Both the position numbers and the translations under genes were made by a program. From Acidiphilium acidophilum (GTDB taxonomy: Bacteria > Pseudomonadota > Alphaproteobacteria > Acetobacterales > Acetobacteraceae), in NCBI RefSeq assembly GCF_033842475.1, contig NZ_JAWXYB010000018.1, positions 3,145,501 to 3,209,500 of the forward strand: a DNA stretch of 64,000 nucleotides, given 5' to 3'. Under the pieces are notes generated by a model, which saw only the letters and a program-made list of their open reading frames with translations, searched no databases and had not been told where the DNA came from. Positions 6,302 to 61,457 of the stretch are shown piece after piece (the first letter of the stretch is position 1; the number at the start of each line of letters is the position of its first letter).

Positions 6302-6376
6302 TGGTGCCGGGTGAGGGATTTGAACCCCCGACCTTCGGTTTACAAAACCGCTGCACTACCACTGTGCTAACCCGGC
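6302..6376 (-). tRNA. tRNA-Thr (UGU)
   Basis: The minus strand folds as GCCGGGT acceptor, GCAC/GTGC D-stem, anticodon loop TTTGTAA (anticodon TGT), a five-base T-stem around TTCAAAT, ACCCGGC and an encoded ACCA end. The G-A pair at the top of the anticodon stem also occurs in other alphaproteobacterial tRNA-Thr. Confidence 0.95.
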
Positions 6377-6462
6377 GACCGGCTTCGCCCTCTTATCACG
6401 ACCGCACAGGGTTTCCACCCCTTGCTTCACCCCGGAGCGCGGTTTATACGCCGCGAACCGGT

Positions 6463-6538
6463 GGGGCCATAGCTCAGTTGGGAGAGCGCCTGAATGGCAT
6501 TCAGGAGGTCGGCGGTTCGATTCCGCTTGGCTCCACCA
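6463..6538 (+). tRNA. tRNA-Ala (GGC)
   Basis: GGGGCCA pairs with TGGCTCC, the D-loop contains AGTTGGGA, and the anticodon stem CCTGA/TCAGG encloses ATGGCAT (anticodon GGC). The T-arm is standard and CCA is encoded. The 3' half is overlapped on the opposite strand by the end of the lipoate ligase gene. Confidence 0.95.
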
Positions 6539-7643
6539 GGTTCATTTCATGCAAACGATGCGGCTCGAACCGGCTTTCCGCTGCGGATCGGATCGATCCG
6601 ATCAGTTGTGGGGCGGTCAGGCCGATGAAATCGACCCCGCGTGCCGTCAGCACCTGCATCACGATCGTCTCGATCTCCGCGACCGGTGCCCGGCGCAGGG
6701 ACGCTTCGATGTCGCGGATCGCGCGGGCCGGGGTGACGAAAAAATCGCCGGTGATCGCGCAATCGGCGATCCGGTCGCGCGCCGCCCCCTCGAAACGCAG
6801 ATCGACCCGCACCCGTCCGCCGGGATAGGCGGTGAAACTATGGCCGCGGGCGGCATCGCTGGCGGCGGGTGGCGCTTCGCCTTCGATGAAGGCGGGCGTG
6901 CCGATCTCATGGTCGAACAATTCCGCCGCGCGCGCTTCCTCGGCCTCGGTGATCTCGCCCCGGACCGGATCGATCCCGAGCGTTTCGGCGAAGCCGTTCA
7001 GCAGCGCGGTCATGACCTCGCCGACCGGGGGTGCCGTGCCGCCACCGAGCATGGCGAGCGAGACCATGCGATCGGCGATCGAAGCCGCCCCGTGTTTCGC
7101 GAGCTTGTCGGCAGCCACGTTGAGGCACGACACCATCCGCACCGGATCGACATCGAGCAGCACGGTGCCCTGAAAACTCACCAGCCTGCCGTCGAAAAAG
7201 CCGCCGGTGCCGCCGAGCTTGCGGCCATCGACCTCGATATCGTTGCGGGGGCGGTAGGCCGCAGCGACCCCAAGCCGCTGGAGGCCGGTGCAGCAGGCTT
7301 CGCACAGGCGCCGCGTGGTCTCGGTCAGGTCGCCGAACCCCAGGGCGTGGCGGTCGAACACGAACTCCCAGCCGAGTTGCCCTTCATCGAGATAGATCGC
7401 GCCACCGCCGGTGATGCGCCGGCCCACCTCGATCCCGTGGGCGGCACAATAGTCGCGCTTGACCTCGTCACGCAGCACCTGATGACGCCCGACCAGCACG
7501 GTGGGGCGGAAGCGGAGAAAGCGGATAGTGTCGGGCACCTCGTTCGCCGCCCGCGCCTCGATCAATGCCTCGTCGAACGCCATGTGGCGCTGACCGGGAC
7601 GGATCCCGGTGTCGATCACGCGAAAGACCGGGCGCGGGATCAT
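6501..7643 (-). CDS. Lipoate-protein ligase, sLpl(AB)-type
   Basis: The 380-residue protein has the biotin/lipoate ligase fold: RFRPTVLVGRHQ, RRITGGGAIY (residues 75-84), RNDIEVDGRKLGGTGGFF with the likely catalytic Lys142, then a C-terminal accessory domain. The length fits a ligase carrying both the large A domain and the B domain. sLpl(AB) enzymes attach octanoate or lipoate to LbpA in sHdr-containing sulfur oxidisers. It is the last gene of a leftward operon, 3 bp after a LipS gene. The final 12 or so residues (including EPSGIEPPTS) are read antisense through tRNA-Ala, so the true stop is unusually placed. Confidence 0.85.
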   Translation of the reverse strand: MIPRPVFRVIDTGIRPGQRHMAFDEALIEARAANEVPDTIRFLRFRPTVLVGRHQVLRDEVKRDYCAAHGIEVGRRITGGGAIYLDEGQLGWEFVFDRHALGFGDLTETTRRLCEACCTGLQRLGVAAAYRPRNDIEVDGRKLGGTGGFFDGRLVSFQGTVLLDVDPVRMVSCLNVAADKLAKHGAASIADRMVSLAMLGGGTAPPVGEVMTALLNGFAETLGIDPVRGEITEAEEARAAELFDHEIGTPAFIEGEAPPAASDAARGHSFTAYPGGRVRVDLRFEGAARDRIADCAITGDFFVTPARAIRDIEASLRRAPVAEIETIVMQVLTARGVDFIGLTAPQLIGSIRSAAESRFEPHRLHEMNLVEPSGIEPPTS

Positions 7644-7646
7644 GGC

Positions 7647-8897
7647 TCAGCTCTTGGTCGATGCAAGCTGGCGGCGGATCAACCGGACATCCTGCTTGTT
7701 CGGCTGGAACGGGTAGGAGGCGATGTCGCGCGCCGGCGAATCGCCATAGGGCCGGTCGCAGGCCGAGACGTCCTCCGCCTCCTTGCCCGGACAGCCCGAG
7801 GTGCGGAAGGCGACACCAGCGTTGATGATGTCGTCGAGATCCGCCTGCGGCATGCCGTAATCGACCAGCTTTCCGGTGGTATCGAACCGCATGTCGTCGA
7901 TCCGCCGGTCACGGTAATCGATCAGGTAGCGCGCGAGCTGCACCCGCCGCCATTGCGGGCGGGGCACCGCGGGCAGATGATCCATCAGCGAGCCTTTTTC
8001 GGGGAAGAACGCGAACATATGGCTATGGCCGCCCATGTCCCGGATGCGCTGGACCTGGGTGAGCACGTCGTGCTCGCTCTCTCCCATGCCGACGATCAGA
8101 TGCGCGCCGAATTTCTCCGGCCCGAAAATCTCGGCGGCGGCCTTCATGATATCCCAGTACTTGTCCCACGAATGGGGCGACTGCACGCCGCGGCCCCGCG
8201 TGCGGTCGAAGACGTCCGGGTTGGCGGCGTCGAGCGCGACGGTGAAAATATCCGCGCCGAGATCCTTGAGGGTCTGCACGTCGAGCCGGCTCATCGTGGT
8301 CGGGTTCGACAGGATCGAAACCGGCACGTCCGGCACGCGCTCGACCCAGCGTTTCAGAACGACCCTGGTATCGTCATCGGAATTCGGATGGGTGATCATG
8401 CTGATGCACATCCGGTGGAAGCGGTCGCCGTCGCCACCGCGCTCCATGATGTCGAGCACGTCGTCATAAGGCACCGCCGGCCAGTCGACCCGGATGAAGT
8501 TGCGGTCGGCATAGTCGCGGCTCGCTTCGCGGTGGCGGGCGAGGCCGCAATAGGCGCAGTTGGCGCGGCAGCCTTCGGGGTAGGTCAGCAGAAGATTGAG
8601 GCAGCGCGTGCAACTCGTGCGATGCATGTAGCCGTTCATCACGCCGAGGGTGATCGCCGCGGCGGTCGACATCTGGACATAGGCGGGCGAGCGCATATGC
8701 GGCGTCAGGATGTTGTTGTTAGGCAAGTAAACGCCGGACGGCACCTCGTCACGCTCCTTGACCCTGCCGCCGTTGCGGGCATCGGCGGGAACCGGCGCGG
8801 GGGCGCGGGGGATCATGGCCTCGGCGGTGTTATGATCCGCCTTCACGCCGGGCCGGAAATCTGGCGCAGCATCGCGCGGCATTTCGAGACATCCCAT
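7647..8897 (-). CDS. Radical SAM lipoyl synthase subunit, LipS1/LipS2-type
   Basis: The 416-residue protein has a radical SAM CxxxCxxC motif at Cys110, Cys114 and Cys117 (EGCRANCAYCG), with two further cysteines just before it (SCTRC, Cys96 and Cys99). Near the C-terminus is FRTSGCPGKEAEDVSACDRP, which may ligate an auxiliary cluster. LipS1 and LipS2 together insert two sulfurs into octanoyl-LbpA in place of LipA. Which of the two this is cannot be decided here. It lies 39 bp after the other LipS-type gene and 3 bp before the ligase. Other radical SAM functions are possible, but the context argues strongly for lipoate assembly. Confidence 0.8.
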   Translation of the reverse strand: MGCLEMPRDAAPDFRPGVKADHNTAEAMIPRAPAPVPADARNGGRVKERDEVPSGVYLPNNNILTPHMRSPAYVQMSTAAAITLGVMNGYMHRTSCTRCLNLLLTYPEGCRANCAYCGLARHREASRDYADRNFIRVDWPAVPYDDVLDIMERGGDGDRFHRMCISMITHPNSDDDTRVVLKRWVERVPDVPVSILSNPTTMSRLDVQTLKDLGADIFTVALDAANPDVFDRTRGRGVQSPHSWDKYWDIMKAAAEIFGPEKFGAHLIVGMGESEHDVLTQVQRIRDMGGHSHMFAFFPEKGSLMDHLPAVPRPQWRRVQLARYLIDYRDRRIDDMRFDTTGKLVDYGMPQADLDDIINAGVAFRTSGCPGKEAEDVSACDRPYGDSPARDIASYPFQPNKQDVRLIRRQLASTKS

Positions 8898-8936
8898 TAT
8901 CCGGTTTCCTTCTGGTTTTTCATGTGAGTTTCGGTA

Positions 8937-9968
8937 TCAGGCCGCGCAGGCGGTGCGCCCGCGCAGACCATCGAGGGCGATCGAGCAACATGCATGGGCC
9001 TGTTCGACCGGTCGGCCGATCGCGGTGGCCAGCGCGCGAATTCCCTCGGCGGGATAGGCGATTCCGTCGAACCCGGCCATGGTGGCGTAGGCATCCGTGA
9101 TGAGTTTGTGCATCCCCGCCGGGCGGGCGCAGCCGAGCTGGACCGGCACATCCGACAGCCGCTCGCGGGCGGCCACGAACACCCGTGCCGCATCCTCCGG
9201 CGTCACGGTCTCGAACGGGCGGTTTGAGGGCGCGTAATACGGCATCACCACGACCAGGACGAGTGCGGACACCCGGTGCCGGGCGATGATGTCGAGCGCG
9301 TTGAATTCGCCGAGAATCCGGCCGTAATGCAGCCCGATCACGATATGCGGCACCACGTCCATCGAGGTCGCGCTCAGCGCCGCCAGGGTTCGTTCGAAAT
9401 CCTCGACCGGCCGATCGAGGTGATAGACGTCGCGGATCGTCTCCTGCGCGCCAATGATATCGGTCATCGCGACATCGACGCCGGCAGCCTCCATCCGGCG
9501 CGCTTTCACATCATCGAGCAGGGCGCTGTGCATCGCGATTTTCAGGTGAGGAAACTCGCGCTTGAGTTTTTCCACGGTCGGGTAATAGCGCTCATACGGC
9601 ACCTCGTTACGGCGATTGGAGCCACCCGACAGCAAAAACCCCTGGAGGTCCTGCAACAAAACCAGATCGCGCACTTTCCGTTCGAGCATCGCCGGGTCGG
9701 TCGCCGGGATCATCGGGTCGAGAATTTTCGCCTGGCAGTGATCGCAGTTGAGCGCGCACGCGCCCGCCGTGATCGAAAAGGCCGGAAAACTGTTCTTGTT
9801 GCAGCCTTTGACATCCTCGGTCCCATAGGCCCGGAAGGTCGGCGTGAAAAACCGCAGCGGCGCGAGCGGACGGGCTTCTGCCGCAGCCTCCAGCGCCGCG
9901 ACGATATCCGTATTGAATTCAATATCCTCGAACATCTCGATTGACGATAATCTGTCGTTCCAGGTCAC
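8937..9968 (-). CDS. Radical SAM lipoyl synthase subunit, LipS1/LipS2-type
   Basis: The 343-residue protein has a CxxxCxxC motif at Cys71, Cys75 and Cys78 (GACALNCDHCQ), preceded by GCNKNSFPAFS, and a TIM-barrel-like body with LSGGSNRR. C-terminal cysteines (LGCARPAG, HACCS) could bind an auxiliary cluster. It pairs with the adjacent radical SAM gene, as LipS1/LipS2 do in sHdr loci. Translation probably starts at GTG 9968 behind GAGGGA; ATG 9935 is an alternative that removes 11 residues. It is the first gene of the leftward lipS-lipS-lpl operon and is divergent from the GATase-like gene, sharing the 71-bp AT-rich promoter region 9969-10039. Confidence 0.8.
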   Translation of the reverse strand: MTWNDRLSSIEMFEDIEFNTDIVAALEAAAEARPLAPLRFFTPTFRAYGTEDVKGCNKNSFPAFSITAGACALNCDHCQAKILDPMIPATDPAMLERKVRDLVLLQDLQGFLLSGGSNRRNEVPYERYYPTVEKLKREFPHLKIAMHSALLDDVKARRMEAAGVDVAMTDIIGAQETIRDVYHLDRPVEDFERTLAALSATSMDVVPHIVIGLHYGRILGEFNALDIIARHRVSALVLVVVMPYYAPSNRPFETVTPEDAARVFVAARERLSDVPVQLGCARPAGMHKLITDAYATMAGFDGIAYPAEGIRALATAIGRPVEQAHACCSIALDGLRGRTACAA

Positions 9969-10998: not shown

Positions 10999-11379
10999 GT
11001 GGCCAGAAAACTGATGATCATCATGGTCAATAGCGATCCGCGTAATGGCGAGGAAATGGGCGCGCCTTTCTTTCAGGCGACCGTTGCCGCCGCGATGGAC
11101 TATGAGGTCGAGATCGTCTGCACCGCGACTTCGGGGCAGTTGATGAAGAAAGGCGTTGCCGAAGCGTTGCGGGTCAAGGCGGGTTCGGACAAATCCGTCT
11201 ATGATTTCATCAAGGACGCCCATGACGCCGGCGTGAAATTCTACTGTTGCTCGCCCAATCTGGACTTGTTCGACATGACGGAAGCCGACCTGATCCCTGA
11301 ATGTTCCGGCATTGTCGGTGGCGCACATGTGATCGAGGAAGTCATGGAAAACGATGATGTGAAGGTCCTGACTTACTGA
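10999..11379 (+). CDS. DsrE/DsrF-like sulfur carrier protein
   Basis: The 126-residue protein starts at GTG 10999 (MARKLMIIMVNSDPRN) and has the DsrE fold, with the conserved cysteine region FYCCSPNLDLF (Cys83, Cys84) in the usual loop. DsrE3-type proteins transfer persulfide sulfur to or from TusA in the cytoplasm and are encoded beside shdr genes. It is the first gene of the block and lies 50 bp before hdrC1. Assignment to a particular DsrE subgroup is inference. Confidence 0.82.
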   Translation: MARKLMIIMVNSDPRNGEEMGAPFFQATVAAAMDYEVEIVCTATSGQLMKKGVAEALRVKAGSDKSVYDFIKDAHDAGVKFYCCSPNLDLFDMTEADLIPECSGIVGGAHVIEEVMENDDVKVLTY

Positions 11380-11429: not shown

Positions 11430-12275
11430 ATGGATAGTGGCATAGTTACAATCAGCGACCCGTTGAGCGGCAATTCGGGTGTGTCTTACGACAAGCTCGA
11501 GGAGATCTTCAACGATATCAAGGCGCACCCGCTCTACGATCAGGAGCTGTTCGGCTGCCTTAACTGCGGTATCTGTACCGCGACCTGCCCTTCGGCGCAT
11601 TATTACGATTATTCGCCCCGCGAGATCGTGCAGCTGTTGTGGACCGAGAATCTCGAAGGCATCTACGATACGATGCAGGAGAAAATCTGGGCCTGCGCGC
11701 AATGCTATACCTGTGCCGCCCGCTGCCCGTTCCATAATTCACCGGGCGGCCTGGTGATGGTGATGCGCGAAGTCGCGATCCAGCACGGCATGCAATCCGC
11801 CAAGGATGTGCTGCGTCCCTTCACCCGCGTGCTGATGAAGCTGGTCTCGACCGGCAACCAGCTTGCGCCGAACATGATCACCCCCGATGCATTCCCCGAC
11901 TGGGGGCCGAATATCGCGAAAGTGAAGGCCCCGCTCGATCTGCTCCGCAAGGCGATCCCGATGCCGACCATGCATACGACGGACACCGCCTGGGAAGTCA
12001 ACATCAAGACATCGATCGAGCTTTACACGATCTGGGAAGAGACCGGCGTGCTGAAGCAGCTCGAAATGATCGACGAAAATCTGTTCGACGTGATCTGGTG
12101 GTGTAACCTGACGTCTGGAAATTCATTTTGGGTTGGGAGTTGGTGCCCTTGCCGGGGCATGCCCCGGCAAGGGCTGTTCATTCTGGTATTCCATGCAGTT
12201 GTTCACACCAACATGGAGACCGATGAATGGACGCCAAAAAGGATACGATTATCGAGGCACTTTTGGAACATCTGA
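11430..12275 (+). CDS. hdrC1: sHdr subunit HdrC1, 3' end replaced by IS sequence
   Basis: The original gene encodes an iron-sulfur protein with two CxxCxxCxxxCP motifs: Cys43/46/49/53 and Cys89/92/95/99, the HdrC pattern of the sulfur-oxidising heterodisulfide-reductase-like complex. Native sequence runs to Ile222 (12095); the IS begins at 12097. The frame then reads into the element for 59 codons and stops at 12275, giving a 281-residue chimera. Joining the flanks without IS and duplication restores an uninterrupted 242-codon frame, so only the last 20 residues were lost. Both cluster-binding domains remain. Function may therefore be partial, absent or retained. Confidence 0.88.
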   Translation: MDSGIVTISDPLSGNSGVSYDKLEEIFNDIKAHPLYDQELFGCLNCGICTATCPSAHYYDYSPREIVQLLWTENLEGIYDTMQEKIWACAQCYTCAARCPFHNSPGGLVMVMREVAIQHGMQSAKDVLRPFTRVLMKLVSTGNQLAPNMITPDAFPDWGPNIAKVKAPLDLLRKAIPMPTMHTTDTAWEVNIKTSIELYTIWEETGVLKQLEMIDENLFDVIWWCNLTSGNSFWVGSWCPCRGMPRQGLFILVFHAVVHTNMETDEWTPKRIRLSRHFWNI

Positions 12276-13449
12276 TCGAAAACGGCGCAGGCGATATCGC
12301 CACGGTATTTGCCAGGACCTTCGAACTCGCCATGCAGATCGAGCGCGAACGCTTCCTCCACGCCAGTCACTACGAGCGCAACCCCGATCGTCAGGGTTAC
12401 GCCAATGGCTACAAGCCCAAGCGGATCGATACCCCGGCCGGGTCGATCACCGTCGATGTCCCCAAAACCGCCGGTCACGTGGGCGAACCCTTCTACCCAC
12501 AGTCCCTCGAACGCGGCCGACGCTCGGTCCGCGCCGTCATGGTCGCCGTCGCCGAAATGTACATCAAAGGCGTCTCCACCCGCGACGTCGAGGCCGTCAT
12601 GCGCGAATTCGGCATCGAAAGCCTCTCCTCCGCTCAGGTCAGCCGCGCCAGCAAGCTGCTCGATGACGAACTCGCCGCCTGGCGCACCCGACCCCTCGCC
12701 GAGATCCGCTACCTCATCCTCGACGCCAGATATGAAAAAATGCGCGATAATGGCGTCGTCCGCGATGCCGCCGTGCTCTCGGCCATCGGCATCGGACCCG
12801 ATGAACGCCGCCGTGTCCTCGGCGTCTCGGTCGCCCTTTCCGAGGCCGAAGTCCATTGGCGTGCCTTCCTCGAAAGCCTCCATCAGCGTGGCCTGCGAGG
12901 CGTCGAATTCATCGTCTCCGATGACCATGCCGGATTGCACGCCGCACGCCGCGCCGTCTTCGGCGCCGCACACTGGCAACGATGCCAGTTCCACCTCGCC
13001 CAAAACGCCATCCACCACGCCCCCAACCACGCCATCCGCAAACGCATCGGCGCAGAACTCCGGACCGTCTGGAACGCAAATTCCCTCGCCGCTGCCCAGA
13101 TCGCTCTCACAACCCTCGTCAATGCCTATCGCGACACCGCACCAAAGCTCGCCGATTGGCTCGAACGAAATATCCCCGAAGGCCTCACCGTCTTCACACT
13201 GCCAGAACCCCACCAGCGCCGGCTTCGCACTTCCAACCCCATGGAACGCGGCATCCAGCAGGAACTCAAACGCCGCACCACCAAAATCAGGGTCTTCCCC
13301 AACGAAGCCTCCCTCGAACGCCTCGTCAGCGCCGTCCTCGTCGAAATCGATGAAAAATGGGCCGCCGACACCAAGGGCTACATCAAGTGGGACTACCAGG
13401 ATGCCTGACCCCCGCTCGCCCTATTTTCCAGACATCAGGTTGCTCAATC
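12097..13449 (+). mobile_element. IS256-family insertion sequence, copy 1
   Basis: The element is 1353 bp, with imperfect terminal inverted repeats of about 26 bp: GGTGGTGTAACCTGACGTCT at the left end against GATTGAGCAACCTGATGTCT read inward from the right. It is flanked by an 8-bp target duplication CGTGATCT (12089-12096 and 13450-13457). It carries one transposase gene in the same direction as hdrC1. A second copy with the same length, ends and transposase sequence sits at 57271-58623. The left boundary could shift by one base. Confidence 0.95.
12227..13408 (+). CDS. IS256-family (mutator-type) transposase
   Basis: The 393-residue protein has the family order: HYERNPDRQGYANGYKPK near the N-terminus, a DDE catalytic core with LILDARYEKMRDNG (first Asp), VSDDHAGL (second Asp) and a C-terminal SNPMERGIQQELKRRT around the Glu. 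It catalyses cut-and-paste or copy-out transposition of the element. Its protein sequence matches that of copy 2. The start is ATG 12227. Confidence 0.96.
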   Translation: MDAKKDTIIEALLEHLIENGAGDIATVFARTFELAMQIERERFLHASHYERNPDRQGYANGYKPKRIDTPAGSITVDVPKTAGHVGEPFYPQSLERGRRSVRAVMVAVAEMYIKGVSTRDVEAVMREFGIESLSSAQVSRASKLLDDELAAWRTRPLAEIRYLILDARYEKMRDNGVVRDAAVLSAIGIGPDERRRVLGVSVALSEAEVHWRAFLESLHQRGLRGVEFIVSDDHAGLHAARRAVFGAAHWQRCQFHLAQNAIHHAPNHAIRKRIGAELRTVWNANSLAAAQIALTTLVNAYRDTAPKLADWLERNIPEGLTVFTLPEPHQRRLRTSNPMERGIQQELKRRTTKIRVFPNEASLERLVSAVLVEIDEKWAADTKGYIKWDYQDA

Positions 13450-13457
13450 CGTGATCT

Positions 13458-13519
13458 GCGACATCATGGAAGAAAAACGCGCCGATTTCGAGGATTGGCA
13501 AGACGAGCAGGACGACTGA
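13458..13519 (+). pseudogene. hdrC1: Detached 3' end of hdrC1
   Basis: Downstream of the second target-duplication copy, the bases encode the last 20 residues of HdrC1 in the frame expected for the intact gene: CDIMEEKR, then an acidic tail ending DEQDD and TGA at 13517-13519. The fragment has no start of its own. It shows where the gene ended before insertion and lies 40 bp before hdrB1. Confidence 0.88.
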
Positions 13520-13559
13520 TCAACCGCGTTGATCCGAAACGATCGAAAGGTTAAGGACA

Positions 13560-14936
13560 ATGGCTGAGAAACCCGTAAAGACTGCCGAAGGCGACTTCAC
13601 CGGATTCGGTTCCGAATGGCGCGCCAGCACCCTCTCTCCGGAAGATGCCCGCACGGCGACCGCCTGGGTCGAAAAGCGCATCGACCGGCGCGAGATGCTG
13701 ACCCAGAAGGACAAGGTTCACGATGTCCGCGACGTGATGTGGGATCTGGAAAAGGACGGTGAAATCGTCGTCCACCGCATCACCGACCAGCACGAACCGG
13801 TCATCGGCCGCACCTTGTACGGCTGGGAGAAAAAAATCCCGACCAATCAGCTCTGGCACCACAAATCCTGCGGCCAGTGCGGCAATATTCCGGGCTACCC
13901 CAGCTCGTTGCTGTGGATCCAGAACCAGCTCGACATCCGCTATCTGGACGAGACCGACCAGACCTCCTGCACCGCATGGAACTATCATGGGTCGGGGATC
14001 GGCAATGTCGTGAGCCTTGCCGCGGTCTTCCTGCGCAATTTCCATCAGGCCTATGTCTCGGCCAAGGCGTTCGGCATGGATGCCGGGTATTACTACCCGC
14101 TGGTCCATTGCGGGACGTCGTTCGGAAACTACAAGGAAATCCGTCATTTCCTGCTCCACTCCGCCGAACTGCGGGAAAAAGTCCGCTCCATCCTCGCCAA
14201 GCTCGGCCGTCTCGTCGATGGCAAGCTGCTGATCCCCGAGGAAATCGTTCATTACTCGGAATGGTTGCATGTCATGCGCAGCCGGATCGCGGAACGGCAG
14301 GTCATCGATGTCAGCAACATCCGCGCCACGGTTCATCCGGCGTGCCATGTGCACAAAATGGTGCCGGAAGACGTGCTTTATGACGAGACCGTTCTCGATG
14401 GTAACCGCGTTGCGGTCTCGACCGGGTTGTTGCAGTCTTTGGGCGCTCAGGTGATCGATTACTCGACCTGGTACGATTGCTGCGGCTTCGGCTTCCGCCA
14501 CATCATCGGCGAGCGTGAATTCACCCGCTCCTTCGCGATCGATCGCAAAATCAAGGTCGCGGTGGAAGAGGCGCGTTCGGATGTCATGATCGGTCACGAT
14601 ACCGGCTGCATCACCACGCTCGACAAGAGCCAGTGGATCGGCAAGGCGGTCGACAAGGTCTATGAGCTGCCGGTGATGGCCGATTGCCAGTTCGGCGCGC
14701 TCGCCATGGGGGCGCATCCCTACAAGCTCGCCCAGTTGCATTGGCACGCCTCGCCTTTCGAAAAACTCCTTGAGAAAATCGGGATCGACTGGGAACAGAA
14801 GAAGGCGGAATTCGAGGACTACCTCAAGGATGTCGCTGAGGGCCGGATCGAGACATTGTACGACCCGAAACGCGCGATCACCTCGGGGCCGGGCTATGTC
14901 GGCTTGTCGATTGAAGGAACGGGAGCAAACGCGTGA
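13560..14936 (+). CDS. hdrB1: sHdr subunit HdrB1, CCG-domain protein
   Basis: The 458-residue protein contains cysteine-rich motifs of HdrB: KSCGQCGNIPGYPSS, a central HPACHVHKM, YDCCGFGFRH and GHDTGC. In methanogen HdrB such CCG motifs bind non-cubane [4Fe-4S] clusters at the disulfide site; in the sulfur-oxidising complex HdrB1 is thought to take part in catalysis on LbpA-bound sulfur. The ATG follows AAGGACA. It overlaps hdrA by 4 bp. Transcription must now cross or restart after the upstream IS. Confidence 0.88.
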   Translation: MAEKPVKTAEGDFTGFGSEWRASTLSPEDARTATAWVEKRIDRREMLTQKDKVHDVRDVMWDLEKDGEIVVHRITDQHEPVIGRTLYGWEKKIPTNQLWHHKSCGQCGNIPGYPSSLLWIQNQLDIRYLDETDQTSCTAWNYHGSGIGNVVSLAAVFLRNFHQAYVSAKAFGMDAGYYYPLVHCGTSFGNYKEIRHFLLHSAELREKVRSILAKLGRLVDGKLLIPEEIVHYSEWLHVMRSRIAERQVIDVSNIRATVHPACHVHKMVPEDVLYDETVLDGNRVAVSTGLLQSLGAQVIDYSTWYDCCGFGFRHIIGEREFTRSFAIDRKIKVAVEEARSDVMIGHDTGCITTLDKSQWIGKAVDKVYELPVMADCQFGALAMGAHPYKLAQLHWHASPFEKLLEKIGIDWEQKKAEFEDYLKDVAEGRIETLYDPKRAITSGPGYVGLSIEGTGANA

Positions 14937-15985
14937 GTGATCCAATTCTGATCGTCGGCGCAGGGCCGGCGGGACTGTCTGCCGCCTATGCTGCCGCCGG
15001 TAACGGCAGCAAGGTGGTGCTGGTGGAAAAGGCGGACCGGCTCGGCGGTGCGCCGATTCTGTCCGGCTATGCCAAACTGGTTCCGAGCCACGAATGGGCG
15101 AAGGACGCGATCGGCGGCATGGTCTCGCGGGTCGAGAGCAACCCGATGGTCACGGTTCATCGCGACACGACGGTAACGGCGTTCGACGGCCAGCCGGGTG
15201 CCTTCGTCGCGACACTTTCGAGCGGCGAAAAAATCAACGCCAGCGCCGCGATTTTGACGACCGGCTTTACTCATTTCGACTCGGTGAACAAGCCGGAATG
15301 GGGCTTCGGCACCTATCCCGACGTCGTCACGACCACCCAGGTCGAACAGATGATTTCGTCCGGTCAGGGGGTCCGTTGCCCGTCCGACGGGCGCAAGCCG
15401 GAGCGCGTTGCGATCCTGCTGTGCGTCGGCTCGCGGGATCGGCAGATCGGCCGGGAATGGTGCTCCAAAGTCTGCTGCACCGTCTCGGCGAACATGGCGA
15501 TGGAAATTCGCGAGGAACTGCCGAACTGCAACGTGTATATCTATTACATGGATATCCGCACCTTCGGCCTCTACGAAGGCGAATTCTACTGGAAAAGCCA
15601 GGAAGAATACAAAGTCAAATACATCAAGTCGCGTATCGCCGAGGTGACCTCGAACGGCAAGCGCCTGATCGTCAAGGGCGAGGATACGCTGGTCAAACGC
15701 CCGATCACCATTCCGTTCGACCTCGTGGTCCACGCGATCGGCATGGACCCGAATGTCGACAATATGGTGATCGCCTCGGTGTTCGGCGTGAAGCTTCAGC
15801 AATACGGCTACATCGATCGCGCCTCGACCTACACGATGATGAGCGGCACCAGCCGCCCCGGCGTGTTCGTCGCCGGTGCCGCGACCGGGCCCGAAACCAT
15901 CGATGATTCCATCGCTCAGGGCCAGTCGGCGGCGATCGCCTCGCTGAACATGAGCCACAGCGCCGTGCGCCAGGCCGCCGAGTAG
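14933..15985 (+). CDS. hdrA: sHdr subunit HdrA, FAD and iron-sulfur protein
   Basis: The 350-residue protein opens with the FAD-binding motif ILIVGAGPAGLSAAYAA and has LTTGFTHFD and a late FVAGAATGPETIDDSIAQG. Cysteines in LLCVGSRD...GREWCSKVCCTVSANMA fit the [4Fe-4S] site of sHdrA. The compact length matches the sHdr type, not the larger methanogen HdrA. It overlaps hdrB1 by 4 bp, and its stop shares a base with the next gene's start. Confidence 0.92.
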   Translation: MSDPILIVGAGPAGLSAAYAAAGNGSKVVLVEKADRLGGAPILSGYAKLVPSHEWAKDAIGGMVSRVESNPMVTVHRDTTVTAFDGQPGAFVATLSSGEKINASAAILTTGFTHFDSVNKPEWGFGTYPDVVTTTQVEQMISSGQGVRCPSDGRKPERVAILLCVGSRDRQIGREWCSKVCCTVSANMAMEIREELPNCNVYIYYMDIRTFGLYEGEFYWKSQEEYKVKYIKSRIAEVTSNGKRLIVKGEDTLVKRPITIPFDLVVHAIGMDPNVDNMVIASVFGVKLQQYGYIDRASTYTMMSGTSRPGVFVAGAATGPETIDDSIAQGQSAAIASLNMSHSAVRQAAE

Positions 15986-16860
15986 TGGGACGGTCGGGCA
16001 ACATCGTCCCGCTTCGCGGTCAGCACGGCGTCGCACCCGTGCTCGACCTCGGCGGGCCGCAGTTGCGCGCCACCCTGCAGGATCTGGTGGAAGCCTCGGC
16101 GTCCACCGGCGGCATCGACGTTTATGTCAACGCTCTCGGCGTCAAATCCGCGCTTTTCACCGCCCTGCTGGGCCGCGATGCGATCGGCCGGCTCGACGAA
16201 TCGCTGCTGCGCGACCTTCTGGCGTTGATGCCCACGGTTCGCCGGCGGGCCCGGCTGTGGCTGGAGCGGGAAGGTGCGTCGAGCCTTCGCGCGCGCATCA
16301 TCACCCTCATGGAAGGTCACGGGCGGGAACAGCCGATCGACGATCTGATCGCGAATTTCACCGCCCAGTTCCCGGAGGGCAACGATTATCGCTGGACCCG
16401 CGATCTGGCGGCGGAAATCCTGCATTTCACCGCCCCCGACCGCTGCCCGCTGATGACCCGCTGGATCTGGGATGCCAAGGCAAAAACCGGGGTCTTGCGC
16501 GAAATCTGGTTCGACGATGCCATCGATGAAAAACGCGTGGTCGTGCGCGATGATTTCGCGACCTTCAAGGTGCTGGCCGACGAGATTGCCGGGTTCCTGC
16601 GGGAAAACGGTTTTTTCCGCGAGCTTGCTCTCTGCCAGGACGTGATGTTCGCGCATGTCTATGCCCGCTACATCAACGATCGCGGCAACCAGTTCCTCAA
16701 AGGGGATTTCGGCGGCCCGGAAGATCGTATGGCCCATACCCGCCGGATGCTCGGCCTCGATGCCCCCGGCGCCAAAAAAGGCCGCGCCGCCACTGCCATT
16801 GCGCAGGATTCAGTGCCCGAACCTCTCCAGATCAACAGGACACGCCATGCCGATTCATGA
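15985..16860 (+). CDS. Conserved hypothetical protein of the sHdr locus
   Basis: The 291-residue product starts at GTG 15985 inside the hdrA stop. It is a soluble, charge-rich protein with no signal or TM segment. Recognisable stretches are LQDLVEASASTGGIDVYVNALGVKSALF, LTRDLAAEILHFTAPDRCPLMTRWIWDAK-like residues and a basic tail. A gene of unknown function sits between hdrA and hdrC2 in other shdr clusters, and this occupies that slot. It overlaps hdrC2 by 14 bp. Tight coupling suggests a maturation or assembly role, but no motif proves it. Confidence 0.75.
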   Translation: MGRSGNIVPLRGQHGVAPVLDLGGPQLRATLQDLVEASASTGGIDVYVNALGVKSALFTALLGRDAIGRLDESLLRDLLALMPTVRRRARLWLEREGASSLRARIITLMEGHGREQPIDDLIANFTAQFPEGNDYRWTRDLAAEILHFTAPDRCPLMTRWIWDAKAKTGVLREIWFDDAIDEKRVVVRDDFATFKVLADEIAGFLRENGFFRELALCQDVMFAHVYARYINDRGNQFLKGDFGGPEDRMAHTRRMLGLDAPGAKKGRAATAIAQDSVPEPLQINRTRHADS

Positions 16861-17629
16861 AAAATCGCTGATCAGGCCGGAAAATTTACGTCGCAACGAG
16901 TCGCTGATCATCGAAGGCGTCGATGTCTCGGGCGACTGGAGCACCTTCATCGATTCCCGGGTGATCACCGACTATAACGAAACGATGCAGGACGAGATCG
17001 CTGCCCTGCCCGGCGGCGAAAACATCCATCGCTGCTGGCAGTGCGGTTCGTGCACCAATTCCTGCACGGTCAATGCGATCAACCCGGACTTCAACCCGCG
17101 ATACTGGATCTACCTGATCCGCATGGGTTACGAATCGGAACTGCTGCGCGACAAGGACATCATCTGGCAGTGCGTGTCGTGCAACAAATGCACCTATGCC
17201 TGCCCGCGTGACGTGGTGCCCGAAGGCGTGATGAAAGCCACCGCGCACTGGCTGGAACTCAAGGGCCACACCGAGCCGTCCAACTCCACCAAGTTCGACG
17301 ACGTGTTCTCGAATCAGGTGTTCGCCACCGGCAAGATCGAAGACGGTCTGGTGATGCGCGACTACTTCAAGGCGACCAATCAGAGCATCACCCAGCCCTG
17401 GCTGATCGCGATGGTGAAATCCCTGGCCAGCCGCATGCCGGTCACGTTGCTGATGAAACTCGGCATTTCCACTGTCATCCGCCCCCGCACACGGGATTGG
17501 TCGCGCGCCCGCGAGGCGATCGGCGAATATGTCACTGAACGGAAAGTCAAGGACCACGCGACGGTCGGCATGCCGATCTCCCACGCCAAAGCGGCGCAGG
17601 GCGAGCCGATCAGCACCAAAGGATCGTGA
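16847..17629 (+). CDS. hdrC2: sHdr subunit HdrC2, two [4Fe-4S] ferredoxin-type protein
   Basis: The 260-residue protein from ATG 16847 has two CxxCxxCxxxC sites: Cys63/66/69/73 (RCWQCGSCTNSC) and Cys109/112/115/119 (QCVSCNKCTYACP). The spacing is that of HdrC. It would carry electrons between HdrA and HdrB-type subunits. It overlaps the preceding orf and is followed by hdrB2 after 2 bp. The C-terminal half is helical, ending in a polar tail. Confidence 0.92.
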   Translation: MPIHEKSLIRPENLRRNESLIIEGVDVSGDWSTFIDSRVITDYNETMQDEIAALPGGENIHRCWQCGSCTNSCTVNAINPDFNPRYWIYLIRMGYESELLRDKDIIWQCVSCNKCTYACPRDVVPEGVMKATAHWLELKGHTEPSNSTKFDDVFSNQVFATGKIEDGLVMRDYFKATNQSITQPWLIAMVKSLASRMPVTLLMKLGISTVIRPRTRDWSRAREAIGEYVTERKVKDHATVGMPISHAKAAQGEPISTKGS

Positions 17630-17631
17630 AC

Positions 17632-18549
17632 ATGAAACACAAAAAAGTCGCCTATTATCCCGGTTGCGCCCTCGAAGGCACCGGCCACGCCTACAACCGC
17701 TCCACCAAGGCGGTCGGCAAGGCGCTGGGGCTCGACCTCGTCGAGCTGGAGAACTGGAATTGCTGCGGCGCCATGGAGGTCAAGAACGTCGACCCCAAAC
17801 TGCAGACCTATCTTTCCGCCCGCAATCTCGCCATCGCCGAAGACATGGGCTTCGACACCGTTATGGCGCCCTGCAACGGCTGCTACCACAATCTGAAAAA
17901 AGCCGAATACGATCTTGAGCACGATCAGGGCTCGAAGGACGTGGTGAGCCGGATTTCGACCAAGGCGGGTCACAAGACCTATGAAGCCGGCAAGGTCACC
18001 ACGATCCACGCCCTGGACTGGATCAAGGAGTCGGTCGGCGAGGAAGGTCTCGCCAAGCTGGTGAAAAAGCCGCTGAAGGGCCTCAAGGTCGCCAATTACT
18101 ACGGCTGCATGTATACCCGCCCCCGTCACATCTTTCCTGAAAAAGATCAGGGACCGGGTTCTGAATCGACCTCGAAGCCGCATTTCATGGACGATCTGCT
18201 CGCCGCCGCCGGTGCCACCAATGTCGATTTCCCGCTCAAGACCGCCTGCTGTGGCGGGGCGCACACCCTCTCCGACTCCGACACCTCGACCAAGCTGGTT
18301 CTGAATATCCTGATGGCCGCGGAAGCCTGCGGCGCCGATGTGATCGCCACCGAATGCCCGACCTGCCATACCGGGCTCGAAATGCACCAGAAGCGCGCCG
18401 AGACCAATTTCGGCAAAAAAACCTCGGTGAAAATCCTCTATTTCACCCAGTTGCTCGGCATGGCCATGGGCCTGTCCAAGCGCAATGTCGGGGTCCATGA
18501 AAACTTCTCCGACTCGGGCGATCTGCTCAAGGCGCGAGGTCTCGGATGA
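17632..18549 (+). CDS. hdrB2: sHdr subunit HdrB2, CCG-domain protein
   Basis: The 305-residue protein has two cysteine-rich CCG domains: PGCALEG with NWNCCGAMEV and APCNGCYHN, then YYGCMYTR with TACCGGAH and TECPTCHTG. This is the complete HdrB pattern for two non-cubane clusters. ATG 17632 has AAAGGA eight bases upstream; a GTG at 17626 overlapping the hdrC2 stop is possible but less well placed. It overlaps the next orf by 4 bp. Confidence 0.92.
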   Translation: MKHKKVAYYPGCALEGTGHAYNRSTKAVGKALGLDLVELENWNCCGAMEVKNVDPKLQTYLSARNLAIAEDMGFDTVMAPCNGCYHNLKKAEYDLEHDQGSKDVVSRISTKAGHKTYEAGKVTTIHALDWIKESVGEEGLAKLVKKPLKGLKVANYYGCMYTRPRHIFPEKDQGPGSESTSKPHFMDDLLAAAGATNVDFPLKTACCGGAHTLSDSDTSTKLVLNILMAAEACGADVIATECPTCHTGLEMHQKRAETNFGKKTSVKILYFTQLLGMAMGLSKRNVGVHENFSDSGDLLKARGLG

Positions 18550-19055: not shown

Positions 19056-19499
19056 ATGGCAAATGTCCGCGGCTGCAACCTTCCTGACGATCTAATCTAC
19101 GATGTCGACAACAACATGTGGTACCGAGCCGAAGCCGATGGCACGATCACTCTGGGCATGACCGCGGTGGCCGCCGCCCTCGCGGGCCAGCTCGTCGCGT
19201 TCACCCCCCGCAAGGTGGGGCGTTCGGTCCAAGCCGGCAAATCCTGCGCCACCATCGAATCCGGCAAATGGGTCGGGCCGGCGAAAATCGCCTTCGATGC
19301 CGAAGTCGTGGCCGTGAACGATGCCGTGGTCTCCGATCCCAAACTCGCCAACGCCGACCCCTACGAAAAGGGCTGGCTGGTCCGCGTCAAATCCCCGGGT
19401 TGGGATGAAGTCAAACCGAAACTCACGCCGGGTGCGCAGGTTGCCGCCCCATACGAAGCCAAAATGGTCGCGGACGGCTTTGCCGGCTGCGCACCCTGA
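19056..19499 (+). CDS. lbpA: Lipoate-binding protein LbpA (GcvH-like)
   Basis: The 147-residue protein has the lipoyl-domain fold with the modified lysine at Lys71 in CATIESGKWVGPAK, preceded by GMTAVAAALAGQLVAFTPRKVG. The LbpA family differs from glycine-cleavage H protein and occurs with sHdr, where lipoate carries the sulfur substrate. No glycine cleavage genes are nearby. It sits directly after the hdr genes and before tusA, as expected. Lipoylation would be done by the LipS pair and ligase encoded at 6.5-10 kb. Confidence 0.93.
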   Translation: MANVRGCNLPDDLIYDVDNNMWYRAEADGTITLGMTAVAAALAGQLVAFTPRKVGRSVQAGKSCATIESGKWVGPAKIAFDAEVVAVNDAVVSDPKLANADPYEKGWLVRVKSPGWDEVKPKLTPGAQVAAPYEAKMVADGFAGCAP

Positions 19500-57270: not shown

Positions 57271-58623
57271 GGTGGTGTAACCTGACGTCTGGAAATTCAT
57301 TTTGGGTTGGGAGTTGGTGCCCTTGCCGGGGCATGCCCCGGCAAGGGCTGTTCATTCTGGTATTCCATGCAGTTGTTCACACCAACATGGAGACCGATGA
57401 ATGGACGCCAAAAAGGATACGATTATCGAGGCACTTTTGGAACATCTGATCGAAAACGGCGCAGGCGATATCGCCACGGTATTTGCCAGGACCTTCGAAC
57501 TCGCCATGCAGATCGAGCGCGAACGCTTCCTCCACGCCAGTCACTACGAGCGCAACCCCGATCGTCAGGGTTACGCCAATGGCTACAAGCCCAAGCGGAT
57601 CGATACCCCGGCCGGGTCGATCACCGTCGATGTCCCCAAAACCGCCGGTCACGTGGGCGAACCCTTCTACCCACAGTCCCTCGAACGCGGCCGACGCTCG
57701 GTCCGCGCCGTCATGGTCGCCGTCGCCGAAATGTACATCAAAGGCGTCTCCACCCGCGACGTCGAGGCCGTCATGCGCGAATTCGGCATCGAAAGCCTCT
57801 CCTCCGCTCAGGTCAGCCGCGCCAGCAAGCTGCTCGATGACGAACTCGCCGCCTGGCGCACCCGACCCCTCGCCGAGATCCGCTACCTCATCCTCGACGC
57901 CAGATATGAAAAAATGCGCGATAATGGCGTCGTCCGCGATGCCGCCGTGCTCTCGGCCATCGGCATCGGACCCGATGAACGCCGCCGTGTCCTCGGCGTC
58001 TCGGTCGCCCTTTCCGAGGCCGAAGTCCATTGGCGTGCCTTCCTCGAAAGCCTCCATCAGCGTGGCCTGCGAGGCGTCGAATTCATCGTCTCCGATGACC
58101 ATGCCGGATTGCACGCCGCACGCCGCGCCGTCTTCGGCGCCGCACACTGGCAACGATGCCAGTTCCACCTCGCCCAAAACGCCATCCACCACGCCCCCAA
58201 CCACGCCATCCGCAAACGCATCGGCGCAGAACTCCGGACCGTCTGGAACGCAAATTCCCTCGCCGCTGCCCAGATCGCTCTCACAACCCTCGTCAATGCC
58301 TATCGCGACACCGCACCAAAGCTCGCCGATTGGCTCGAACGAAATATCCCCGAAGGCCTCACCGTCTTCACACTGCCAGAACCCCACCAGCGCCGGCTTC
58401 GCACTTCCAACCCCATGGAACGCGGCATCCAGCAGGAACTCAAACGCCGCACCACCAAAATCAGGGTCTTCCCCAACGAAGCCTCCCTCGAACGCCTCGT
58501 CAGCGCCGTCCTCGTCGAAATCGATGAAAAATGGGCCGCCGACACCAAGGGCTACATCAAGTGGGACTACCAGGATGCCTGACCCCCGCTCGCCCTATTT
58601 TCCAGACATCAGGTTGCTCAATC
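57271..58623 (+). mobile_element. IS256-family insertion sequence, copy 2
   Basis: This 1353-bp element has the same ends, the same orientation and the same transposase as the copy at 12097-13449. A 9-bp target duplication GTTACAGCC flanks it (57262-57270 and 58624-58632). It sits in the A+T-rich spacer between moaC and the glycosyltransferase and appears not to break a gene. Confidence 0.96.
57401..58582 (+). CDS. IS256-family (mutator-type) transposase, copy 2
   Basis: The 393-residue protein has the same sequence as the copy 1 transposase, including the DDE core motifs LILDARYEK, VSDDHAGL and SNPMERGIQQELKRR. An intact frame and matching sequence show that both copies are recent and could still be active. 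Confidence 0.96.
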   Translation: MDAKKDTIIEALLEHLIENGAGDIATVFARTFELAMQIERERFLHASHYERNPDRQGYANGYKPKRIDTPAGSITVDVPKTAGHVGEPFYPQSLERGRRSVRAVMVAVAEMYIKGVSTRDVEAVMREFGIESLSSAQVSRASKLLDDELAAWRTRPLAEIRYLILDARYEKMRDNGVVRDAAVLSAIGIGPDERRRVLGVSVALSEAEVHWRAFLESLHQRGLRGVEFIVSDDHAGLHAARRAVFGAAHWQRCQFHLAQNAIHHAPNHAIRKRIGAELRTVWNANSLAAAQIALTTLVNAYRDTAPKLADWLERNIPEGLTVFTLPEPHQRRLRTSNPMERGIQQELKRRTTKIRVFPNEASLERLVSAVLVEIDEKWAADTKGYIKWDYQDA

Positions 58624-58748
58624 GTTACAGCCTCGTTGCGGTGAAAACATTTGAATGATGCGGGAATTCTATCTATTGCTGAGGCGACCGGGTTCACGCG
58701 GACGCGGATCACAGGTTGGGCTTCCGGCGACCAAAAAGGATAGACTGA

Positions 58749-61457
58749 ATGGCGAAACAGCCAGACACCAACGGTGTGGACCGCACGAAGCGCTCCGACC
58801 TTCCCCTCGTGCGGCCCGGCCGTGTGATCCTCGGCTATCTCGACCGGATCGAGGATGCCTCGCTGGTCGGCTGGGCCGTGGACTCGCTGGTGCCCGATCG
58901 CACCCTGACCATGCGCGTGCTGATCGACGGCCAGATCGCCGATGTGATCTCCTGCGACGTCAACCGGCCCGATACCGCGCCGCTGAATCTCCCGACCACC
59001 CGAGTCGGTTTCGACTACATGATCCCGCTGCGGTTTCAGGACGGTCTGCGCCATGTCCTGTCCTTTGCCACGCTCGACGGCGACCCGATCAGCCTGCCGA
59101 CGCGCGGTGGCCTCGTCCTGCCCGAACTCCATTTCTGCCTGAAAACCCGCATCCATATCGAGGGCGTGCTCGATGGATTGGTCGATGGCATGATCCAGGG
59201 CTGGGTCGTCCGCGTCGATGAACGAACGAACACAAAAATGGGCGGCGTCCGCGTCCTGATCTCGACCAAGGGACAGCCGCTCGCCGAACTCACCGCCAAT
59301 GAATTCCGCGCCGATGTCGCCGAGGCAACCGGCGCCGATCCGTCCTGCGGGTTTTCCTACGCGCTGCCCCCCGAATTGCGCACCGGCAAATCGATCGTGC
59401 TCGATTTCCACGCCATGCCGGACCGTATTCTGCTGCGCGGCAGCCCGCTCGAACTGGCGATCCCCGCCGAAGCCGAACGCGCCCGGCTGAGCAGCCTGAT
59501 CGACCGGGCCGATGAGTTGTTCCGCTACGCCTACCATCTGCGGCGGGAATTAAAGGCGGCGATGCTGGCGGAACGGCTGACGCTCGGCAATTACGAAAGC
59601 TGGGTTCGCCAGAGCCGGAAACACGTTCCGGCCCGCGCCACCGCCCGTTACGGCGCGATCGGCGGATCGCCGCTGGTATCGATCCTGTGCCCGGTATTCC
59701 GCCCCAACCAGGCGGAATTTCTGGCCGCGATCGACTCGGTGCGGGCCCAGACCTATCCCAACTGGGAACTCATCCTGGTCGATGACGCGAGCAAGGACGA
59801 GGCGCTCTCCGAAACGCTGGACCGGATGGCCAGGGTCGATCCACGGATCAGGCTCATCGTCCTGCCCCGCAATGGCGGCATCGCGGCAGCGACCAATAAG
59901 GCCCTCGAAGCCGCCACCGGCGAGGTCACTGCGTTTTTCGATCACGACGATGTGCTGGAACCCTTCGCGCTCGACGTCATGCTGCGCGCCCGCACCGCAA
60001 CCGGTGCCCGGCTGCTCTACTCGGACGAAGACAAGATCGACCGCAGCGGGCGCGTCTCCGAGCCGAACTTCAAGCCGGATTTCAATTATCGCTTCCTGCT
60101 CGACCTCAATTACATCTGTCACCTCGTCATCGCCGATACCGCATTGTTGCGCGAGGCCGGCGGGCTCGACCCCCGGTTCGACGGAGCACAGGATCACGAC
60201 CTGCTGCTGCGGCTCGCCGAAAAGCTGCTGGCGCACGAAATCCATCACGTCCCCGAAATCCTGTATCACTGGCGCATCACCGCGCAATCGACCGCCGGGG
60301 GCGCCGCAGCGAAGCCACGCGCGGCGCTGGCCGGCGAGGTCGCGGTGGCCGAACATCTCAAACGGCGCAATCTGCCCGCCAAGGTCGAGCGGCGCGGCAG
60401 CCTGACCTGCTACCAGACCAGCTTCCGGCTGACCGAAAATCCCGGGATCTCGATCCTGATCCCGTTCCGCAACCATATCGACCTGACCCGCCAATGCGTC
60501 GAGGCGATCCGCGCCCATTCCGACGGCATGAAAATCGAGATCCTCCTGCTCGACAACTGGTCCCAGGGTGCCGAGGCCGAGGCCTTCTGCACCGAGCAGG
60601 GCAACGAACCCGATACCAAAGTGCTGCGGATCGCCGAGCCGTTCAATTATTCGCTGATCAACAATCGCGGGGTCGCGGCGGCGGCGCATCCGTTCCTGCT
60701 GTTCATGAATAACGATGTCATCGTCAATGACCCCTCATGGCTGCGCACCCTGCTGAACGAGGCATTGACCGACCCGAGGGTCGGCGCCGTCGGTGCCAAG
60801 CTGCTCTACCCCAACGGGACGGTGCAGCATGCCGGCGTGGTGCTCGGCGTCGGCGGCGTGGCGGACCATGCGTTTCGCGGCCTCCCCAGCAGCGCGCCGG
60901 GCTATATCGCCCACGCGATCGCGGCGCGCGAGGTCGCGGCGGTGACGGCGGCGTGCATGCTGGTCCGGCGCGAGGCGTTCGAGGCCGCCGGCGGGTTCGA
61001 CGAGGCCGAACTCGGCATCGCGTTCAACGATGTCGATCTGTGCATCAAGATCCGCGAGGCCGGCTACCGGATCGTGTTCACGCCGGACGTGGTGTGCGAA
61101 CATCGCGAGAGCATGAGCCGGGGCGACGATCTCGACGAGGATAAACTCTCCCGCTTCATGCGCGAGAACGAGGCGATGCGCGGCCGCTGGGGGCATCTGC
61201 TGGCGCATGATCCGTTCTACAATCGCCATTTCACCCGCGAGGGCGGGCTTTACCGCGATCTGCGCTCCCTCGACCCGAAGGACGAAACGCCGATCGCGCG
61301 AACCCCGGCGCAGCCCTACCCGATCGCCCCGGTGCACGCACCCCGCACCCCCGCCCCGTCCCGGCCCGCAAAGCCCGCGCGGGCGGCAAAGCCGGTGGCG
61401 CCGCCCGCGCGCGCCAAAAGCGGCGGCGCGAAAGATCAGAGGGTGACGCCGCGATAA
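58749..61457 (+). CDS. Two-domain GT2-type glycosyltransferase
   Basis: The 902-residue protein has three parts. Residues 1-270 are a beta-rich N-terminal domain (VILGYLDRIEDASLVGWAVDS). A first GT-A domain starts near residue 307 (VSILCPVFRPNQAEF, VDDASKDEALSE, FFDHDDVLEP). A second starts near residue 567 (GISILIPFRNHIDLTRQ, LFMNNDVIVNDPSWL, AGGFDEAELGIAFNDVDLCIKIREAGYRIVFTPDVVCEH). The C-terminal tail is rich in Pro and Ala. The sugar and acceptor cannot be read; such proteins often build O-antigen or rhamnan chains. Confidence 0.85.
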   Translation: MAKQPDTNGVDRTKRSDLPLVRPGRVILGYLDRIEDASLVGWAVDSLVPDRTLTMRVLIDGQIADVISCDVNRPDTAPLNLPTTRVGFDYMIPLRFQDGLRHVLSFATLDGDPISLPTRGGLVLPELHFCLKTRIHIEGVLDGLVDGMIQGWVVRVDERTNTKMGGVRVLISTKGQPLAELTANEFRADVAEATGADPSCGFSYALPPELRTGKSIVLDFHAMPDRILLRGSPLELAIPAEAERARLSSLIDRADELFRYAYHLRRELKAAMLAERLTLGNYESWVRQSRKHVPARATARYGAIGGSPLVSILCPVFRPNQAEFLAAIDSVRAQTYPNWELILVDDASKDEALSETLDRMARVDPRIRLIVLPRNGGIAAATNKALEAATGEVTAFFDHDDVLEPFALDVMLRARTATGARLLYSDEDKIDRSGRVSEPNFKPDFNYRFLLDLNYICHLVIADTALLREAGGLDPRFDGAQDHDLLLRLAEKLLAHEIHHVPEILYHWRITAQSTAGGAAAKPRAALAGEVAVAEHLKRRNLPAKVERRGSLTCYQTSFRLTENPGISILIPFRNHIDLTRQCVEAIRAHSDGMKIEILLLDNWSQGAEAEAFCTEQGNEPDTKVLRIAEPFNYSLINNRGVAAAAHPFLLFMNNDVIVNDPSWLRTLLNEALTDPRVGAVGAKLLYPNGTVQHAGVVLGVGGVADHAFRGLPSSAPGYIAHAIAAREVAAVTAACMLVRREAFEAAGGFDEAELGIAFNDVDLCIKIREAGYRIVFTPDVVCEHRESMSRGDDLDEDKLSRFMRENEAMRGRWGHLLAHDPFYNRHFTREGGLYRDLRSLDPKDETPIARTPAQPYPIAPVHAPRTPAPSRPAKPARAAKPVAPPARAKSGGAKDQRVTPR

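Follow-up and report, generated by a model that had tools for sequence, protein, structure and literature searches.

The window analysed here, a 64,000-nucleotide stretch of the Acidiphilium acidophilum genome, carries an insertion sequence (IS) inside hdrC1, a gene of a sulfur-oxidising sHdr cluster, and the question is whether the protein, and the system to which it belongs, can still function. We consider it probable, at roughly 0.75, that, in a type I sHdr cluster, a recent copy of an IS256-family element broke the single-copy hdrC1, and that the resulting chimera keeps its iron-sulfur cluster motifs, loses a conserved C-terminal tail and works poorly or not at all. The features of the locus are collected in Table 1.

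Table 1. Features of the interrupted hdrC1 locus and its surroundings (positions in the window)
Feature	Position	Strand	Remarks
DsrE-like sulfur carrier gene	10999..11379	+	Upstream of hdrC1; NF047629 2.5e-07, below its cut-off
hdrC1 5' part	11430..12096	+	First 667 bases, as far as base 1 of codon 223; carries both 4Fe-4S motifs; Pfam Fer4_8 1e-09
Chimeric ORF	11430..12275	+	HdrC1 1-222 plus 59 residues from the IS left end
Target duplication, left copy	12089..12096	+	8 bp, CGTGATCT
IS256-family insertion sequence	12097..13449	+	1353 bp; oriented like the hdr genes
Left terminal inverted repeat core	12105..12121	+	17 nt, 94% complementary to 13425-13441
Perfect palindrome, terminator-like	12145..12174	+	15-bp arms; near the left IS end
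Transposase, IS256/Mutator	12227..13408	+	393 aa; NF033543 E=1.9e-95; PF00872 6.6e-92
Right terminal inverted repeat core	13425..13441	+	
Target duplication, right copy	13450..13457	+	8 bp, CGTGATCT
Severed hdrC1 3' end	13458..13519	+	Remainder of codon 223 to stop; conserved C-terminal tail
hdrB1	13560..14936	+	Open; own ATG 40 nt past the old hdrC1 stop
hdrA-like flavoprotein gene	14933..15985	+	Open
'hyp' gene of the shdr cluster	15985..16860	+	Open; named by position, no family match
hdrC2	16847..17629	+	Open; start chosen is ATG 16847 inside ORF 16655-17629
hdrB2	17626..18549	+	Open
lbpA-like gene (GcvH-like, lipoate-binding)	19056..19499	+	Open; 8.7e-29, below GcvH cut-offs; LbpA name from position
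Second copy of the same IS	57271..58623	+	Identical to the first; flanked by a 9-bp duplication; lies between moaC and the next long ORF

The last hdrC1 base before the break is 12096, which opens codon 223 of 242, and the original prediction of an IS within this codon proved correct to the base (12097-13449, with an 8-bp duplication). The chimeric ORF is 281 aa long, with 222 native and 59 IS-encoded residues and a stop at 12273-12275. Its translation confirmed that codons 1-222 are intact with all eight cluster cysteines (C43, C46, C49, C53; C89, C92, C95, C99), and that the last 20 residues have been swapped for the 59 residues of the IS, both as predicted. Joining the flanks without the IS and one copy of the duplication gave 242 codons and a stop, and the exact recovery of the frame thus also held. 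A second intact hdrC1, which had been named as evidence against a broken gene, was looked for in the own genome and not found; the other native match was the weak, 30% identical HdrC2, and the remaining matches were IS tails.

The element is an ordinary member of the known IS256 family, with a Mutator/IS256 transposase, a length of about 1.35 kb, terminal inverted repeats and 8-bp duplications, and nothing basic sets it apart. The transposase scored 319.7 bits against the NF033543 cut-off of 150, and the three family hallmarks (transposase, terminal inverted repeats and target duplication, here 8 bp at hdrC1) were all present. Exact searches of the own genome detected 61 left and 62 right IS ends, which paired into 59 full-length copies and left two left and three right ends unpaired. 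Fifty-seven of the 59 were identical to the window copy and two had one mismatch each. Matching duplications of 8 or 9 bp flanked 50 of the 59 copies; among the nine without, two were at contig ends, four formed two tandem pairs and three were single. Because so many full copies were found, 50 of them with a matching duplication, the insertion at hdrC1 is not a chance pattern. It is a real and recent event, one of dozens in this genome, and a transposon inactivation of a known kind, not a new type of system. Repeat-mediated joins are possible with 59 near-identical copies, but an assembly artefact at this site is extremely improbable: the two flanks are parts of one gene, and a false join would not produce the matching 8-bp duplication that they carry.

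The two substitutions in 59 x 1353 bases correspond to about 2.5e-5 per base, as compared to about 2% between this genome and a draft genome of the same species, which points to a very young burst, gene conversion aside. With megablast, a single match to the IS was obtained in the plasmid collection, 76.1% identical and in Novosphingobium. The best fragments in the genus came from the genomes G004 and G010, with 95-99% identity, and in the draft G004 the IS fragments lay at contig ends.

Insertions in likely genes are common, yet somewhat fewer than at random, since an ORF of at least 200 codons spanned 37 of the 50 testable sites (22 of 30 on contig C18) and 429 of 500 random window positions. 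Special targeting of the sHdr cluster was considered and rejected: contig C18 (3.64 Mb) carries 34 full copies, from which 0.06 hits would be expected in the approximately 6.7 kb of native hdrC1-lbpA.

Some copies were arranged in unusual ways. Two head-to-tail pairs were exactly 6 bp apart (own genome, G000, C2:56434-57786 / 57793-59145 and C18:128557-129909 / 129916-131268). Circular transposition intermediates are known for IS256, and the pairs with the 6-bp spacing resemble the joined ends of such circles. The C2 pair has TCCAACCT at both outer flanks, as if it had been inserted as a unit, and the flanks of the C18 pair do not match. A nested insertion was also seen (G000 C18:2233390-2236103), in which one copy is split by another in the opposite orientation with an 8-bp duplication.

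The cluster around the insertion has the core order shdrC1B1AHC2B2 that defines type I sHdr according to PMC11582611. The order C1-B1-A-hyp-C2-B2 is present with C1 interrupted, and the associated lipoate-binding protein of this type is represented by the GcvH-like gene at 19056-19499; the intact HdrC1 of this type is missing, its last 20 residues being replaced. Gene order and the nearby GcvH-like lbpA and DsrE-like genes are the same as in the type I sHdr-LbpA system of Hyphomicrobium denitrificans, from which the cluster differs by the IS interrupting hdrC1. The Hdr model matches were below cut-offs that were made for methanogen enzymes. The ORFs at 6501-9968, putative lipoate assembly genes (lpl, lipS1 and lipS2) of the kind found near type I sHdr clusters, are open and conserved with the same-species draft. 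As predicted, hdrB1 to hdrB2 are intact and tightly overlapped, with open frames and overlaps of 4 nt (hdrB1/hdrA), 1 nt (hdrA/hyp), 14 nt (hyp/hdrC2) and 4 nt (hdrC2/hdrB2).

The proposed comparison with a sister strain was possible with the same-species draft (G001, 83% complete), which is 97.8-98.9% identical to the own genome over the compared stretches. Its hdrC1 is split over two contigs, with the 5' part on C187 and the insertion site on C190, where the site is uninterrupted and has the predicted sequence. The 20-residue tail is the same as the own one, with one silent difference at 13516. The overlap of the two contigs disagrees near the contig ends, where C187 has the window bases at 11701 and 11709 and C190 does not. 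The IS had no match in this draft, and its true absence is likely but not proven because the draft is only 83% complete. Over hdrB1, hdrA, hyp, hdrC2, hdrB2 and lbpA 85.5 synonymous changes separate the two genomes, as compared to 13.5 non-synonymous ones (hdrC2 counted from the second codon; the rows of the amidotransferase, DUF302 and FAD-enzyme left out) with no broken frame, a pattern indicative of purifying selection on the genes downstream of hdrC1 relative to the draft. The intact neighbours are no argument for present function, because a young insertion has left little time to decay.

The kept iron-sulfur domains had been taken as a reason why the protein may still work. The presence of the eight cysteines stands, but the conclusion drawn from it is weakened by the lost tail. 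A scan with one genome per species gave 413 relatives, from which the best 80 were kept; one of them (L112), at a contig end, was dropped from the tail and conservation counts. All 79 complete relatives among these best 80 of 413 have a tail of 20-32 residues beyond the insertion point. In the conservation alignment of 80 rows (the 79 relatives and the flank-joined own sequence) D224, E228, K229 and R230, all of them among the lost residues, are invariant in 80/80 rows, M226 is found in 79/80 and W236 in 75/80. The relatives were retrieved by patterns elsewhere in HdrC1, so this conservation was not selected for by the search. Taken over its full length, the tail is more variable than the rest, with a mean entropy of 0.97 as compared to 0.15 for the cluster region and 0.42 and 0.49 for the two blocks in between. 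The emphasis of the original prediction on the retained iron-sulfur domains understates the damage, and the conserved C-terminal segment with its D-x-M-x-E-K-R motif is a target for mutagenesis.

AlphaFold2 (AF2) models, made with alignments of 35 of the 80 relatives, were also considered. In an intact relative (L055) a C-terminal helix is predicted at residues 208-234, with pLDDT values of 75-86 for 10-residue blocks in the best model among five. Residues 216, 220, 221 and 222 of this relative correspond, by the invariant residues, to the own 224, 228, 229 and 230, which places the break inside the predicted helix. The model is of moderate quality (mean pLDDT 64.7 and pTM 0.60 in the best; 44.0-56.2 in the other four), and the model of the chimera, with a mean pLDDT of 43.9, says little either way. 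A Foldseek search of the L055 model against the PDB gave no match at E <= 0.001, the best hit, at 1.5e-03, being a methanogen HdrC, and a search of solved structures yielded no sHdrC1 chain at the same threshold. The tail may be a helix that packs or docks on a partner subunit and stabilises HdrC1 there. Given the conservation of the tail and the cut through the helix, the chimera is probably unable to perform its full function, although both of its clusters may form.

Expression of the downstream genes could also be affected. The first 144 nt of the IS fold better than shuffled sequences (z -3.75, with 1 of 200 shuffles at least as good) and the transposase start sits in the second predicted hairpin of this left end; the scan for terminator-like hairpins gave 1 as compared to 2.1 in shuffles. 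Transcription from upstream may therefore be damped by the IS, unless ribosomes on the chimeric frame, which runs to 12275, open the hairpins. The polarity may be weak, because hdrB1 has retained a start of its own, 40 nt downstream. A scan of 12000-13650 gave no sigma-70-like promoter; with 0.3 expected by chance and a single promoter type covered, this is a weak negative.

It is unlikely that the chimera still functions, with its two cluster domains sufficing for electron transfer and the block being read through or from the IS. The eight retained cysteines, the open downstream frames with their apparent purifying selection and the own start of hdrB1 would suit this explanation, and as nothing else has decayed a retained function is conceivable. 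The tail present in 79/79 complete relatives (best 80 of 413) with its four invariant residues argues against it, as does, weakly, the missing sigma-70-like promoter at the right IS end. A poorly working or dead chimera, with a possible additional drop in downstream expression by polarity, therefore remains our preferred reading.

The insertion may have a second aspect: of the three phases in which the IS can be entered, a single one stays open, and it is the one used by hdrC1. Ribosomes coming from the hdr message would therefore pass both hairpins and the transposase start, as far as 12275. This would allow sulfur-induced hdr transcription to switch on the transposase, by which the sulfur-oxidation promoter would be tied to transposition and, on exact excision, sHdr would be turned on and off reversibly; we regard this as very unlikely. 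Other IS copies were also entered in the same phase by long open frames of up to 890 codons, and the entry from hdrC1 is not unique.

An insertion in only part of the culture, or a reversible on/off change by precise excision, is compatible with a broken hdrC1 and was judged improbable. The perfect 8-bp direct repeats, the exact restoration of the frame and an active-looking element with identical copies would allow it. A precedent is described in a review, in which IS256 in icaC of staphylococci is proposed to cause phase variation that is reversible by exact excision, with occurrence in laboratory subcultures (PMC4322838). Both cases have an IS256-type element inside an operon gene, but gene, host and function are different and excision has been proposed for icaC only. 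The 59 scattered copies point instead to undirected spread, and the same review cites a study with IS256 in the ica locus in 0/120 clinical isolates (PMC4322838). We regard the hdrC1 insertion as fortuitous, neither a designed nor a selected device. Among the publication titles listed, none described an IS within an shdr gene, which is no proof of absence.

The sulfur physiology of the strain may explain how the insertion is tolerated. The sox cluster of the own genome is open, with soxC, soxX, soxY, soxZ, soxA and soxB all over their cut-offs and a cytochrome gene, named by position only, in the place of soxD. The same-species draft contains soxB and a soxC truncated by a contig end; soxY was not detected in it. 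Extracytoplasmic oxidation of thiosulfate is possible for a Sox system with SoxCD, so a loss of sHdr need not abolish the use of thiosulfate. The open genes soxC, X, Y, Z, A and B may buffer the loss for this substrate, and the strain would tolerate the insertion for this reason; the oxidation of cytoplasmic sulfane sulfur would be expected to be impaired. According to PMC6067878, a Hyphomicrobium mutant with an insertion affecting hdrA and every gene downstream of it was unable to grow on dimethylsulfide. From the sequences and models, loss or reduction of sHdr function appears the likeliest outcome, and metabolic models in which hdrC1 of this strain is treated as functional may be in error.

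With the chimera as query, 6 of 13 genus genomes gave a match, and native hdrC1 was found in the own genome and the same-species draft only; G004 and G010 matched by IS tails, and G007 and G011 weakly, with 33-40% identity. Among 299 genomes drawn from the order, 6 had hdrC1, the own genome included. The uninterrupted draft and the interrupted genome form a natural same-species pair in which sHdr is broken at one point and sox is present, which is useful for determining what sHdr adds. As the lipoate/sHdr block lies beside tRNA genes and its hdrC1 was found only in this species among the 13 genus genomes, some of them incomplete, the block is a possible genomic island. The tRNA-Thr and tRNA-Ala genes adjoining it are at 6302-6538 of the window. 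Three Acidithiobacillus ferrooxidans plasmids (for example NZ_CP082239.1, 16912-18023) carry a gene with 71.6% identity to hdrB1 across about 1.1 kb.
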